Shown here: positions 53,613 through 61,178 of the stretch, piece by piece
Layout: each line of letters opens with the position of its first letter
How positions within the stretch are numbered: the stretch's first letter is position 1
Source: Salinisphaera sp. Q1T1-3
GTDB lineage: Bacteria; Pseudomonadota; Gammaproteobacteria; Nevskiales; Salinisphaeraceae
Assembly: GCF_003602005.1 (NCBI RefSeq)
Contig: NZ_QZWD01000007.1
Span: forward strand, 124,001-188,000
DNA length: 64,000 nucleotides
Direction: 5' to 3'
Made by a program: the position numbers and the translations under genes
Notes under the pieces: model-generated
Database searches by the model: none
What the model was told of the DNA's origin: nothing
Seen by the model: only the letters and a program-made list of their open reading frames with translations

Positions 53613-53625
53613 GTTACAATATAAC
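53613..53625 (+). promoter_or_regulatory. Zur-box-like palindrome upstream of receptor-ZIP operon
   Basis: GTTACAATATAAC matches the Zur consensus GTTATA-n-TATAAC at 11 of 12 positions. It lies 66 bases before the receptor ATG, where repressor binding would cover the promoter. It is the second strongest of three such sites. Confidence 0.7.
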
Positions 53626-53690
53626 ATTGTGATTTCGGGCGGCAGTTCGGTCGCCCGTTTTAGTTGTTGCCGCATGAGGGGGCAGGTTTG

Positions 53691-55871
53691 ATGTTGGGGA
53701 CCATCCGGGGTCGCGTGCGACCGGTGTTTTGTATTGTAATGTTATTACCTTCGGTTTCACTGGCGGCGAATCCGGCGCCCGCGGCCGCCCCGGCTCCGGC
53801 GGCGCCGAGCGCTGGCTCGGCCGCGTCGGCGCCCACGAGTCGGCTCGATACCGTATCCGTGACCGGTGTGCCGATTCCCGGGAGCCCGCTGTCTCAGGCG
53901 GCCGAGGTCGACGTCGTGAATTCGTCGACGATGAGTGCCGACGGTGCGGCCAATCTCGGACAGGGCCTGTCGCATCTGCCCGGCGTGGATTCGATCGGGA
54001 CCGGTAACGTCGCCGGTAAACCGGTGATTCGTGGCCTGTCCGGTGAGCGGGTCAAGATTCTGTCGAACGATATCGGCGTTTCGAGTCAGTCGTTCGGTGT
54101 GCGTCACATGCCGGTGACCGATCCGTTTCTGCTCGACAGGGTCGAGGTGGTGCGCGGCGCCTCCAGCGTGCTTTACGGCTCGAGTGCGCTAGGCGGGGCG
54201 ATCAATCTCATGCCATTGGATATCGACTACGACGCTCGGGCCAAGGGTGAGCTGCTCGGTCGCTACGACAGCAATAACCGTGAATGGGATACCGGCCTCA
54301 AGGCAACCGGCGGCAACGGCCATTTCGGGTATGCCGCCGGTCTGATCCGGCGCGACGGCGGTGATATCCGCACGCCCGACGAGGCCACGTATTTCCCCGG
54401 TCCGGATGCCGCGGCCCATCCCGATGCCCCGGCCTATACCGGCCGCCTCAAGTACACGGATTTCAACCAGATCAACGGTACCGTGGCCGTCGGCATGCAG
54501 GACAAGACGCTGGGCGACTGGCGCCTGGCCTATTCGCGCTGGAACGACGAGCACAATTATCTGCTCCCGCCGCCGGCCGGCATCAAGCCGCCGCCGGCCG
54601 GTCAGGAAGGCGTGGGCCAGTTCATCGACGATCGCCAAGTGCAGCTGACCGGCCACAAGAAACTCGCCGGTATCGACTGGAAGCCGAACCTGATGTGGCA
54701 GAACAATCGGCGTCGCTCGAACGCCGGCGGCTATCCGCGCCATCTCGGCTTCGATGGCGATATCGATCTGCAGTTCGACCAGTACACGGCACGCCTGACC
54801 GGCCAGCACGGCGCGGTGCTCGGTCTGTCCGGCGGTACGATCGGCGTGGAATACGTCAACAAGCAACAGGTCTCGCGCGGGCGGACCCAGCTCTCGCCGG
54901 GCGGCGAGGTCAACAACGCGGCCGTGTTCGCCTTCGAAGAGAAGGACCTCGGCAAGCTGACGCTGCAGGCCGGTCTGCGTTACGACTATCACGACGTCGA
55001 AGCGCTGTCCGGCAAGACGGCCAACCCCTCCACGTCGGTGCGCGACGCCGACAAGCAGAGCTATAACGTGGTGACGGGCAGCATCGGCGGGGTCTATGCC
55101 TTCACCGACCATCTGTCGTTGGCCGCCAACGTCGGTCGTGGCTTCCGAGCGCCCACCCTGTTCGAGTTGTACGTGGCCGGCCAGCACGGTGGCGTGGCCG
55201 CCTTCCAGCGCGGCAACCCCGACCTCGATCCGGAAACATCGCTCGACACGTCGTTGTCGCTGCGTTGGGAATCCGATCGCATCAGCGCCGAGCTGACCGG
55301 CTACCGGAACGCCATCGACGACTACATCTATCTCCAGTCCACCGGCACCATGCGCAACGGTCTGCCGGTGTTCGATCACGACCAGGCCGATGCCGAACTC
55401 TACGGGGCCGAAGGCCGGATTCAGGCTCAGCTGACCGACTGGGTCTCGATGCACGTCAAGGGCGAGGTCGTGCGCGGCCGGCGTCGCGACAATCATGACG
55501 ATCTGCCGCTGATCCCGGCCGATAATGTCGGTATCGGTGCACGCTTCACGCCGCACGGCCCCTCCTGGCCGCGCAAGACCTACGCCAGCATCGACCTGAC
55601 GTATCACGACAGCCACGACGCCGCCCCGGGCGAGCCCTTCTCGCAGTTCGATACCGCGCCGTTCGGCCGGGCCTCGACCTCCGGCTATGGTCTGGTAGAC
55701 GTGGGGGCGGGGGTGGCGCCGAAAATCGGCGGACACGAAGTCCAGCTGGATCTGCGCGTGCACAACCTGTTCGACAAGCCGTATCGCGATTTTCTGGATA
55801 CCTACAAGGGCTATGCGTTGTCGCCCGGTCGCGATATCCGGCTGACGACCACCATCCCGTTCGATATCTGA
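53691..55871 (+). CDS. znuD: TonB-dependent receptor, ZnuD-like
   Basis: This 726-residue outer-membrane receptor has a signal peptide (cleavage near S-L-A-A, residue 25), an Ala/Pro-rich linker (about 28-50), a plug domain with V-I-R-G-L-S-G-E-R-V-K-I and V-V-R-G-A-S-S-V-L-Y-G-S-S-A-L-G-G, and a barrel ending in T-I-P-F-D-I. The plug resembles ZnuD, which imports zinc across the outer membrane with TonB energy. A near-perfect Zur box precedes it and a ZIP-like transporter gene starts 13 bases after it, so zinc uptake is the best reading. The ATG at 53691 gives the signal peptide; the open frame begins at 53664. Confidence 0.88.
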   Translation: MLGTIRGRVRPVFCIVMLLPSVSLAANPAPAAAPAPAAPSAGSAASAPTSRLDTVSVTGVPIPGSPLSQAAEVDVVNSSTMSADGAANLGQGLSHLPGVDSIGTGNVAGKPVIRGLSGERVKILSNDIGVSSQSFGVRHMPVTDPFLLDRVEVVRGASSVLYGSSALGGAINLMPLDIDYDARAKGELLGRYDSNNREWDTGLKATGGNGHFGYAAGLIRRDGGDIRTPDEATYFPGPDAAAHPDAPAYTGRLKYTDFNQINGTVAVGMQDKTLGDWRLAYSRWNDEHNYLLPPPAGIKPPPAGQEGVGQFIDDRQVQLTGHKKLAGIDWKPNLMWQNNRRRSNAGGYPRHLGFDGDIDLQFDQYTARLTGQHGAVLGLSGGTIGVEYVNKQQVSRGRTQLSPGGEVNNAAVFAFEEKDLGKLTLQAGLRYDYHDVEALSGKTANPSTSVRDADKQSYNVVTGSIGGVYAFTDHLSLAANVGRGFRAPTLFELYVAGQHGGVAAFQRGNPDLDPETSLDTSLSLRWESDRISAELTGYRNAIDDYIYLQSTGTMRNGLPVFDHDQADAELYGAEGRIQAQLTDWVSMHVKGEVVRGRRRDNHDDLPLIPADNVGIGARFTPHGPSWPRKTYASIDLTYHDSHDAAPGEPFSQFDTAPFGRASTSGYGLVDVGAGVAPKIGGHEVQLDLRVHNLFDKPYRDFLDTYKGYALSPGRDIRLTTTIPFDI

Positions 55872-55884
55872 GCCGAGCGTTGCC

Positions 55885-56733
55885 ATGCGTGACCGATCTT
55901 TTCCCCATGTCGACGGCGCGGAGCGCGCGACCGGCCTCGATGCCCTCGGCGGCCGGCTGGTCGGGCGCCGTGGCCTGTCGGTTCTGATCGCGCTGTGGGG
56001 TTTGACACTCGCTGCCGGTCTCGTCGGCGGGCGAGACAAGCTGGTGGTGATCGCGATCGTGGCGTTCGCGGCCATGATGGCCGGCTGGTGGCTGGCCGGG
56101 CGCATCGGTAGCGGGGTGCGTGTGGCCGCGGCGGCCGATGGGCTGGCCGGTGGGGCCATGCTCACCAGCGCGGCTCTGTTTCTGCTGCCAATGGCCGTCG
56201 GGCCCGATCCGGTCTTGGGCAGTGCCGGTGTCGCGGCTGGACTGGTCATCGGCATTGCACTCGACCGGTTGATCGGCATCGAGCACGGCACCGTGCACAT
56301 GCGCGATGCCAGCGTGGCGGCGATCACGCTGCATGCGCTGGCTGCCGGTGTCGTGATGGGCCTGATCTATGCCCGCATGCCTGCGCTCGGGCTTTTGCTC
56401 GGCACCGCGATCATCAGCCACAAGCTGCCGGCCGGCTATGCGCTGGCACGCAATCGGCGATATCGCGGGCTGTCCGCGGCGCCGATTCTGTGGCCGGCCG
56501 CCATGGTCGGGCTGGCCGCGATTCCCGTCGCGCTGACGATCACGCCGGGTACGCCGGCCGACAACGCCGGCCTGTTTGGTATCGCGACCGGCGTTTTCAT
56601 GCACGTCGGCCAGGATTTCTCGCGCCAGCGTATCGGCGCGCCGGAAACATCGACGGCGAATCGCTGGTTCGTGATGGCGATGCTGGCCGGCGGGCTGGCG
56701 GTCGTTGCGCTGCGCTGGCTCGTCCAGGCCTGA
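55885..56733 (+). CDS. ZIP-like metal transporter
   Basis: The 282-residue protein has seven to eight hydrophobic helices and the general ZIP plan, with the long first loop replaced by a short one. The metal motifs are degenerate: helix 4 reads H150-A-L-A-A-G instead of H-N-x-P-E-G, and helix 5 reads H179-K-L-P-A-G instead of H-E-x-P-H-E or H-N-I-P-E-G, so the acidic ligands are Ala. The two histidines remain. It is 13 bases after the znuD-like receptor and so under the same Zur-like control, which supports zinc import into the cytosol. A related transporter with altered metal choice is possible. Confidence 0.78.
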   Translation: MRDRSFPHVDGAERATGLDALGGRLVGRRGLSVLIALWGLTLAAGLVGGRDKLVVIAIVAFAAMMAGWWLAGRIGSGVRVAAAADGLAGGAMLTSAALFLLPMAVGPDPVLGSAGVAAGLVIGIALDRLIGIEHGTVHMRDASVAAITLHALAAGVVMGLIYARMPALGLLLGTAIISHKLPAGYALARNRRYRGLSAAPILWPAAMVGLAAIPVALTITPGTPADNAGLFGIATGVFMHVGQDFSRQRIGAPETSTANRWFVMAMLAGGLAVVALRWLVQA

Positions 56734-58472: not shown

Positions 58473-59684
58473 TCATGCGGCCTCGGCGCGCCAGGTCGGG
58501 AAAGGATCGGCGAGACGTTGCCAGGCCGCCCAACCGGCCGCGATTTCATCATCGGTGAGCAGACAGGCATCGAGCCGTGCCGTCAGTGTCGTCTCGTCCA
58601 TGTCGATACCGATGACCACGATCTCCTGACGCCGATCGCCGTAGTCGCGGTCCCAGTGTCGTTGCACTTCGGCGCGCGTGTCGGGGTCGCTCGGCAGGCG
58701 GCCGGCCGCGGTATCGCTGGCCCACCAGAAACCGGCGGCCTGATGGGTCAGGGCGCCGCCGGCCTGGCTGATCTCACCGACCCAGTCGGGGCGCGATGCC
58801 AGCCAGAAATAACCCTTCGAGCGCAGTACACCCGGCCAGTCGCCGTGCATGAGGGTGAACAGCCGTTCCGGGTGAAAGGGCCGACGTCGCCGATAGACGA
58901 AGCTGGCGATGCCGTATTCCTCCGTTTCCGGCGGGTGCGATTCGCCGGCGAGCTCGCGCGCCCAGCCGGGCGCTGTGGCCGCTGCCTCGAAATCGAAGGC
59001 ATGCGTGCCGAGCACGGCCGCAGGCCGCACGACACCGTGGCTTGTTTCAAGCACCGTGGCGCCGGGGTTCAAGGCGCGCAGAACGGCCCGGGCCCGTCCG
59101 CGGGTCTCCGGATCGACCCGGTCGCACTTGTTGAGCACGATGACATTGGCGAACTCGATCTGGTCGACCAGCAGATCGACCACGGTGCGTTCGTCCGAGT
59201 CATCGACCGACTCGCCCCGATCGGTGAGCAGTTCGGTGCTGGCGTAATCGGCCATCAGGGCCCCGGCGTCGACCACCGTGACCATAGTGTCGAGTTCGGC
59301 GATATCGGCCAGCGAGAAACCGAGCTCATCGCGCACGGCGAAGGTGGCTGCCACCGGCATCGGCTCGGATATGCCTGTCGATTCGATCAACAGATAGTCG
59401 AAGCGGGCTTCGCCGGCCAGACGCGTGATCTCGGTCATCAGGTCGTCACGCAGGGTGCAGCAGATGCAGCCATTGGAGAACTCGACCAGGCGCTCGTCGA
59501 CGCGCGACAGACCGCCGGTCTCGCGCAGCGTCGCCGCGTCGATATTGATCTCGCTCATGTCGTTGACGATCACGGCCACCTTGAGGCCGGCACGGTTGGC
59601 GAGGATGTGGTTGAGCAGGGTGGTCTTGCCGGCGCCGAGAAAACCGGAAAGCACCGTGACGGGAAGTCTGGCGTGCTGAGGCAT
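58473..59684 (-). CDS. CobW/COG0523 GTPase, ZigA-like zinc chaperone
   Basis: COG0523 GTPases deliver metal to client enzymes; the Zur-regulated ones serve zinc starvation (ZigA, ZNG1). The 403-residue protein has the Walker [10 protein letters not shown] at 14-22, the metal motif G-C-I-C-C-T at 72-77 (C73-x-C75-C76), and N-K-C-D near 190 for guanine. The C-terminal domain (about 260-400) is the usual variable client-binding part. A perfect Zur box stands 33 bases upstream of the ATG, and the zur gene precedes it on the same strand, so zinc-starvation induction is a strong inference. Confidence 0.93.
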
Positions 59685-59716
59685 GGCCGATCTCCATCAG
59701 AATGTTTATCAGTAAT

Positions 59717-59729
59717 GTTATAATATAAC
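59717..59729 (-). promoter_or_regulatory. Perfect Zur-box palindrome between zur and the GTPase gene
   Basis: GTTATAATATAAC is a perfect dyad equal to the Zur consensus GTTATA-n-TATAAC; outer T/A bases extend the symmetry. It lies in the 84-base gap between the zur stop (59769) and the GTPase start (59684), so it is placed to repress the GTPase. Confidence 0.85.
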
Positions 59730-59768
59730 ACTCAAGAGACAGAAGATGCACGGCGACGCGTTGAAGCG

Positions 59769-60272
59769 TCAGCCGGCCTCGCTCTGGTCGGCGCAGAGCG
59801 CGCAGAGTCCGTCGACTTCCAGCGTCTGATGATCGATAACGAAGCCGGCCCGTCGTGCCTCACGGTCGATGGCGCGATCGATCTCGTTGCTCTGGATCTC
59901 GGCCGCCCCGCCGCACACGCGGCAGATGAAGAACTTGGGCTGGCCTCGGTCGTGGTCCACCGCGCAACCGATGAAGGCGTTCTGCGACTCGATCTTGTGG
60001 ATCAGGCCGGCTTCCAGTAGAAAATCCAGCGCACGATAGATCGTCGGCGGAGCCGCGTTGCCGCGCTCGGCGTTGATCTGGGCGAGCAGATCATAGGCCT
60101 TGGTCGGCTGATGATTGGCCCAGATCAGTTCGAGGACGCGACGCCGGATCTCGGTCAGGCGCAGACCGCGCTCGCGACACAGCGCATCAGCGCGTGTCAG
60201 CGCATCGGCAATGCAGGCCTGATGATCGTGACGTGTGTGGCTTAGCGCTACGTTGGACGTTGGATGCGGCAT
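59769..60272 (-). CDS. zur: Zinc uptake regulator Zur
   Basis: This 167-residue Fur-family protein has a winged helix with A-P-P-T-I-Y-R-A-L-D-F-L-L-E-A-G (about 74-89) and the two structural pairs C117-x2-C120 and C157-x2-C160, a Zur pattern. The H-H-x-x-D-G-H-A box of Fur is absent; instead there is F-I-G-C-A-V-D-H-D. The start at 60272 is set by homology; the open frame runs on to 61793 only as a dapF shadow. The GTPase gene with a Zur box follows. The protein would repress the two receptors and the GTPase when zinc is plentiful. Confidence 0.92.
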   Translation of the reverse strand: MPHPTSNVALSHTRHDHQACIADALTRADALCRERGLRLTEIRRRVLELIWANHQPTKAYDLLAQINAERGNAAPPTIYRALDFLLEAGLIHKIESQNAFIGCAVDHDRGQPKFFICRVCGGAAEIQSNEIDRAIDREARRAGFVIDHQTLEVDGLCALCADQSEAG

Positions 60273-60575
60273 GATTCGAACCCGAAGGCCGTCAAAGCAA
60301 TGCCCCATTGTGGCGCGAACTGCGTGCCCTGGCGAACATCGCCGGCCGCAATCGCAGCTTGTGGATGCTGTCGCCCGGGGTTTGGCGGTACGATAAGCCA
60401 TTGATGAGCCTGTCGTGACGGTCGACTGGTCACGAGATCCGCGGTGCTGGATCAGTGCGGGCCTGTCCTGGCAGGCGCGTTGCAGTCGATCGGGCAGCAG
60501 GCAGGGCATGGGAAATCGCCGACCCGGCGGTTTGCCGCGTGTCGGGATCAATGAATAACAATCGGGAGCGTGAGC
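60273..60575. other. Gap between divergent zur and PCuAC-like genes
   Basis: These 303 bases have no supportable gene. They should hold the promoters of zur (minus) and of the lipoprotein gene (plus), but I cannot place them. I see no Zur box here, so zur may not regulate itself. Confidence 0.45.
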
Positions 60576-61178
60576 ATGGGTGTTTTGGCGAAGAGCGCCG
60601 TTGGGGTCGGCCTCGCCGGTCTGGTTCTGGCAGGACTGGCCGGCTGCGGCCAGGCACAGCCGGCCGCCGACTGCGGCGAGCTGAGCGCCACGCGTGCCTG
60701 GGTCACGCCGGCGCATGCCGGCTCGCGCGAGATGCTGGGCTACATGCAGTTGCACAACGACGGCAGCCAGGATGTGGTCGTCGAGAGTGTTTCGAGCAGC
60801 CAGTTCGATCGGGCACTTTTTCAGGACAAGAGTGCGGCGGCGAATTCGGCCGACGATGCCTCCGGCGGGGCCCAGCCGCTGGCGCCGTTCACGGTGCCGG
60901 CCGGTGGCGATTTCAATCTGGCGCCCAACAAGCGCGAGATCGCGCTCTATTCGCCGAGCCAGGCCTATCGCACCGGCGATCAGGTGGAATTGAAGCTGGT
61001 TTGTGGGCGCGATCAGGCCACGTTGTCCGTGCCGGCCGTGGTGCGCAGCGGTGATGACGATGACATGTCGCTGCCGCCGACCGATGACGACACGGTGCGC
61101 ACCGAGGAAGCGCTCAAGCAGGGCAAGGGCGATACCGACGGTGTGTCCACCACGGACGATTCCCGGACCGCGAACTAG
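60576..61178 (+). CDS. PCuAC-like lipoprotein lacking the copper ligands
   Basis: The 200-residue protein has a lipoprotein signal with lipobox LAGC (Cys24). The next 120 residues follow the PCuAC (DUF461) copper-chaperone fold: A-T-R-A-W-V-T-P-A start, G-Y-M-Q-L-H-N-D-G-S strand, P-F-T-V-P-A-G-G-D-F-N-L-A-P, and G-D-Q-V-E-L-K-L-V. The His/Met copper-binding segment (H-M-x10-M-x21-H-x-M in the family) is missing. The C-terminal 45 residues are acidic and repetitive. The ATG at 60576 is preferred; GTG at 60570 is in frame, but the GGGAG ribosome site fits the ATG. Function is unknown. It is followed by dapF. Confidence 0.72.
   Translation: MGVLAKSAVGVGLAGLVLAGLAGCGQAQPAADCGELSATRAWVTPAHAGSREMLGYMQLHNDGSQDVVVESVSSSQFDRALFQDKSAAANSADDASGGAQPLAPFTVPAGGDFNLAPNKREIALYSPSQAYRTGDQVELKLVCGRDQATLSVPAVVRSGDDDDMSLPPTDDDTVRTEEALKQGKGDTDGVSTTDDSRTAN

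Follow-up and report, generated by a model that had tools for sequence, protein, structure and literature searches.

The window analyzed here, by which we mean the whole stretch of 64,000 nucleotides of Salinisphaera sp. Q1T1-3 DNA, contains a gene for a Zur-type regulator (zur), an 84-base gap, and a gene for a GTPase, in that order and both on the minus strand. The locus raises the question of whether the gap holds a Zur operator and, if so, which of the two genes that operator serves and which protein reads it. The first-pass annotation had described a perfect GTTATA-n-TATAAC dyad in an 84-base gap, 33 bases before the GTPase gene. Both the gap (59685 to 59768, with the zur stop codon at 59769-59771) and the dyad were confirmed, the sequence reading as a perfect 6-1-6 arrangement, GTTATA-A-TATAAC; the spacing was off by one, since 32 bases were counted to the ATG at 59684. 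As set out below, we place the probability at about 0.9 that the gap contains a canonical proteobacterial Zur operator governing the promoter of the ZigA-like GTPase gene. The features of the locus, and the related sites elsewhere in the genome, are collected in Table 1.

Table 1. Features of the zur-zigA locus and related features of the same genome
Feature	Position	Strand	Remarks
TonB-dependent receptor gene	53664..55871	plus	downstream of the 53613 box; start codon uncertain
Second box in the window, GTTACAATATAAC	53613..53625	.	1 mismatch; before the TonB-dependent receptor gene; absent from the first-pass annotation
ZigA-like COG0523 (G3E) GTPase gene (zigA)	58473..59684	minus	403 aa; GCICC motif, residues 72-76
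18-bp two-dimer Zur skeleton, RNNNYRNNRYNNYRNNNY	59712..59729	.	dyad plus second dimer site at 59712-59724, offset 5 bp
Perfect 13-bp dyad, GTTATAATATAAC	59717..59729	.	fits the one-dimer Zur skeleton RNNNYxxxRNNNY
Possible extended -10, TGTTATATT	59722..59730	minus	TGn + TATATT; inside the operator; putative, found by eye
zur, Zur-type Fur-family regulator gene	59769..60272	minus	ATG at 60272
Second Zur-type gene	L046 7620-8072 (C11:213622-214071)		150 aa; 38% identical to the Zur encoded beside zigA
Genome sites with at most 1 mismatch	zigA box; 53613 (TonB receptor); C57:13218; C11:214389		

The family assignments of the two proteins were examined with profile models. The zur product exceeded the gathering score of PF01475 (Fur family) and scored 120.4 bits against the NCBIfam Zur model, compared with at most 40 bits against the Fur and PerR models. 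Since it remained under the PRK11639 equivalog cut-off of 167 bits, it is referred to as a Zur-type regulator and not as an equivalog of E. coli Zur. Its closest solved structures were E. coli Zur (4mtd) and 7dh7, which is entered in the structure table simply as a Fur-family regulator and which we take to be the Xanthomonas Zur. The earlier naming of the regulator as Zur thus stands in the form of Zur-type, as does the placement of its gene directly upstream of the GTPase gene on this chromosome. In the alignment, both CxxC pairs of the structural zinc site are kept, and at the regulatory site (His/Cys/His/Glu) the first His, the Cys, and the Glu align while the second His is shifted (DHDR versus PTHT); we assume that the aligned zinc-site residues have the roles that they have in Zur. 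For the GTPase, ZigA (NF038288) was by far the best NCBIfam model, with 594.7 bits over the full profile, and the protein is called ZigA-like because the curated cut-off of 600 was missed by 5.3 bits. Both CobW domains, PF02492 (nucleotide binding) and PF07683 (CobW_C), exceeded their Pfam gathering scores, so that a GTPase of the CobW/ZigA type, as first proposed, was borne out. The model for the cobalamin protein CobW gave 157.5 bits against a cut-off of 332.1, and the longest His run is 1, a His stretch being described as a feature of CobW (PMC2770081). Of 16 close homologues, 13 sequences were aligned, and the cysteines of the CxCC motif (C73, C75, and C76) showed no variation among them.

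In shuffles of the window, the gapped dyad pattern gave a mean of 0.01 matches, with one match in 1 of 100 shuffles, and across the whole genome (3,871,222 bases) GTTATAATATAAC was the sole exact match, the reversed control giving none. When mismatches were tolerated, the genome held 4 sites with at most one mismatch compared to 3 for the reversed control, and 15 with at most two compared to 23. Genome-wide near-match counts were therefore rejected as evidence, the reversed control being about equally frequent or commoner, and the weight of the dyad rests instead on its exact match, its position, and its conservation.

Conservation was examined in 61 genomes (the genome itself and 60 relatives), a close ZigA homologue being defined by at least 58% identity. 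Such a homologue was present in 16 of the 61, and a box with at most two mismatches was found at all 16 zigA units, in the genome itself and in 15 relatives. Thirteen of these boxes lay within 150 bp of zigA, against a mean of 0.06 of 16 for single-base shuffles; the other three (G002, G003, and G006) lay before dksA2 in the order dksA2-zigA, and in G006 the sequence ahead of zigA is a run of N. With the reversed core at the same tolerance, 2 of the 16 zigA upstreams matched, and other, non-ZigA G3E loci carried a box in 0 of 14 cases. A survey of named genomes, mostly proteobacterial and covering the best 80 of 594 homologues, found a box within 300 bp in 34 of the 80, whereas the reversed pattern occurred in 1 of 80; in 46 of these best 80 no box lay within that distance, and for one of the 46 the upstream sequence comprised just 33 bases. 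Acinetobacter homologues among the best 80 of 594 fell on either side: that of an uncultured Acinetobacter (L151) has the exact box, as here, whereas another (L106) is unlike the present locus in having none, its nearest sequence showing 4 mismatches. The gene neighbourhood of zigA in Acinetobacter baumannii presumably also differs from the one here.

The E. coli Zur motif, TRWNAYRWTATAWYRTNWCA (PMC6103462), is matched at 19 of 20 positions (one mismatch) from 59711 to 59730, where 0.54 matches with up to three mismatches are expected in the window. Exactness, conservation before zigA, and this fit all support the reading of the gap site as a Zur operator. One Zur dimer is described as occupying RNNNYxxxRNNNY and two dimers as occupying two overlapping sites of this kind (PMC4219657). 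Because the motif fit spans 59711-59730 and a second skeleton overlaps the dyad at 59712-59724, the true site is probably the 18 bp from 59712 to 59729 rather than the 13-bp dyad alone. The overlapping second dimer site was present at 6 of 6 own-genome 13-mers, at 31 of the 34 survey boxes (from the best 80 of 594 homologues), and at 9 of 14 relatives' zigA boxes, against about 4 to 6 expected by chance and uncorrected for kinship; a measured background of 0.30 gives about 4, and the value of 0.44 used in the test gives 6. The E. coli Zur operators (znuABC, zinT, L31p, and pliG) likewise consist of overlapping dimer sites offset by 5 bp, and in E. coli Zur an Asp49-Arg52 pair links the two dimers (PMC4219657). 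In the zur product this pair is replaced by Ala and Asn, a difference from E. coli Zur. Cooperative two-dimer binding of the E. coli kind was consequently rejected: the DNA would permit it, but the protein lacks the salt-bridge residues, and strong cooperativity is not to be assumed. A strict sigma-70 promoter scan returned nothing in the gap (59685-59768), and a terminator scan returned no terminator-like site there. The possible extended -10 within the dyad would place the transcription start near 59715, with a leader approximately 30 bases long.

These results bear on two other accounts of the dyad. That it is a chance AT-rich palindrome, or a mere -10 region, would agree with mismatch-tolerant counts that are not clearly above those of the reversed control, but an expectation of 0.01 in the window, a box at 16 of 16 zigA units, and a box at 34 of the 80 further homologues (best 80 of 594) make this account hardly credible. 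The dyad also begins 39 bases past the zur stop codon and might chiefly be an element of zur itself, either autoregulatory or a terminator-like hairpin at its 3' end. The terminator scan of the gap was empty, however, and the arrangement in the genus argues against this view. A Zur-type match was found in 14 of 14 genus genomes and zigA in 6 of 14, although the absences rest partly on drafts, some 81 to 87% complete. The tandem zur-box-zigA occurred in 3 of the 14 (this genome, G009, and G013), that is, in 3 of the 6 with zigA, while in the others zur and zigA are separated by about 27 kb (G003) or about 20 kb (G002) or lie on different contigs (G006). In these three the box is kept with zigA or with dksA2-zigA although zur lies elsewhere. 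Conversely, in none of the four zigA-less congeners mapped (L095-L098) was a box with at most two mismatches found just 3' of zur, and the window held no box with up to three mismatches upstream of zur, as far as the divergent gene for a PCuAC-type lipoprotein. Autoregulation of zur via the gap box was therefore rejected, and a role of the dyad chiefly in zur expression is very unlikely. Since the box accompanies zigA even where zur is distant and is absent 3' of zur in the four mapped congeners without zigA, comparison of these genomes identifies it as the predicted operator of zigA, the adjacency of zur being a local arrangement. The first-pass picture of regulator, box, and chaperone as one tight unit accordingly holds on this chromosome but fails as an old unit, given the tandem in 3 of 14 genus genomes. 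Antiquity of the zur-zigA tandem was also rejected on the wider survey: among the best 80 of 594 homologues, three loci had a Zur/Fur-type gene on the same strand no more than 1 kb upstream (best match per locus, flanks of at most 3.5 kb), one of these matches being strong (L099) and two weak (L116 and L123, at 46 and 38 bits).

A further alternative, that the box is read mainly by a second Zur-type protein, or by both Zurs, arises from the remainder of the genome. All four own-genome sites with at most one mismatch lie beside gene kinds found in Zur regulons. The TonB-dependent receptor that follows the second box of the window matched TonB-hemin as its best NCBIfam model (181.9 versus 316.85 bits required) and ZnuD at 150.6 versus 950, so no subtype is assigned. 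The C57:13218 box (L047 6219-6231, minus strand) is followed by an unassigned open frame of 79 codons and then by a second COG0523 gene. The C11:214389 box overlaps a 2-mismatch site and is flanked by the second Zur-type gene and by the gene for a further TonB receptor, whose best match was a B12-type model, far below the cut-off. Neither the boxes at these other loci nor the second Zur-type gene had figured in the first-pass annotation. Sites with two mismatches were examined in 2 of 11 cases; one at C11:210506 lies between dksA2/folE2-type genes and AztABC-like genes, the best models of the latter being those of the zinc transporter AztABC, each below its cut-off. The second Zur-type gene has its own overlapping box pair (L046 8385-8402) and is adjoined by zinc-type ABC transporter genes, and the C11 boxes share their motif with the zigA box, all of which favours a part for this protein. 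In contrast, searches with the second protein yielded a single match in all 13 congeners (and two in the genome itself), and in the 8 compared this match was the orthologue of the Zur encoded beside zigA, at 66 to 81% identity. The five congeners with zigA carry the box before their zigA units, so one Zur suffices there, and the recognition region of the second protein differs (PSQIYRALDR versus PPTIYRALDF in the neighbouring Zur). Reading of the box by the second protein, alone or jointly, is thus unlikely, though considerably less so than the two accounts weighed above. With the second protein, 4 of 369 genomes of the class, this one included, reached an E value of 1e-25, the others at 38 to 41% identity. 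In the Zur protein tree (row G049 dropped) it grouped with proteins of Arenimonas, Brucella, and G110 (94/83), and the program flagged its branch as long. It is conceivable, but doubtful, that two Zur-type repressors of different descent, one native to the genus and encoded beside zigA, the other incoming with a cluster of zinc-ABC, dksA2, and folE2 genes, share one operator set that includes the zigA box.

Several neighbouring genes were observed along the way. The folE2-type gene at L046 3299-3955 is seemingly broken, its match ending at 184 of 270 with the apparent remainder in another frame, which may be an assembly error. The DksA-like protein encoded at L046 4004-4411 has, by eye, two of the four zinc-finger cysteines, and a 2-mismatch Zur box adjoins its gene. 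Within the window, a membrane protein gene (55885-56733) lies between the TonB receptor gene and an AmiC-type amidase gene; the protein appears ZIP-like by eye (HKLPAG) and had no Pfam match, its best hit, to a family of unknown function, having an E value of 0.17. The PCuAC-domain lipoprotein gene divergent from zur (60570-61178) has no box with up to three mismatches before it, and in relatives' loci with such a gene a box with at most two mismatches shortly precedes it in 5 of 8; it is possibly a Zur target that was lost here.

Returning to the operator of zigA, we propose that under zinc sufficiency the zinc-bound dimers of the Zur encoded upstream would occupy 59712-59729 and cover the zigA promoter, probably the extended -10 element within the dyad. 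Because no terminator-like site separates zur from zigA, bound Zur may also impede read-through from the one gene into the other. When zinc is low, Zur would give up its regulatory zinc and leave the DNA, and the GTPase would be produced, presumably handing scarce zinc to client proteins. Counting against this reading are the mismatch-tolerant site counts, the reversed-core hits at 2 of 16 zigA upstreams, the empty promoter scan, the missed Zur and ZigA cut-offs, the replaced Asp49-Arg52 pair, and the 46 of the best 80 homologues that lack a box. Very probably, nevertheless, the site serves to silence the GTPase gene at plentiful zinc, a type of switch well known in bacteria.

Putative Zur sites have been reported upstream of 68 COG0523 genes, and genes of this group lie in clusters with zur, with genes for zinc transporters, and with those for paralogues of zinc proteins, among them DksA, FolE2, and amidase (Haas 2009, PMC2770081). 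The clustering of COG0523 genes under Zur control with zur itself has hence been on record since 2009. Subfamily 1 of that study (yciC/zigA) resembles the present case in having a COG0523 gene with an upstream putative Zur site; the difference is that zur here lies directly upstream in tandem, with the operator between regulator and target, and within the parts of that paper that describe these genes no other difference was noticed (PMC2770081). The exact tandem order alone is a local detail. In Paracoccus denitrificans, a COG0523 gene and aztA have Zur motifs and are induced on zinc limitation, and in the relevant passages of that paper the wording on second or paralogous Zur refers to binding sites and to homologues from other species (PMC5387054). 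The zigA gene of A. baumannii is a COG0523 gene induced by zinc starvation (PMC11834433). On Salinisphaera, Zur, and zinc, nothing concerning this organism was found, judging by title and abstract.

Together, these results describe a finding that is genuine but ordinary, a textbook zinc-starvation operator located in this lineage with single-base precision. The sole unusual feature lies beyond 59685-59768, namely, the presence in one genome of two Zur-type proteins alongside a single operator motif, and this combination offers a natural test of whether duplicates share or divide their targets. If the reading with two repressors of different descent were true, zinc sensing in this organism would be split between two sensors acting on the same sites.
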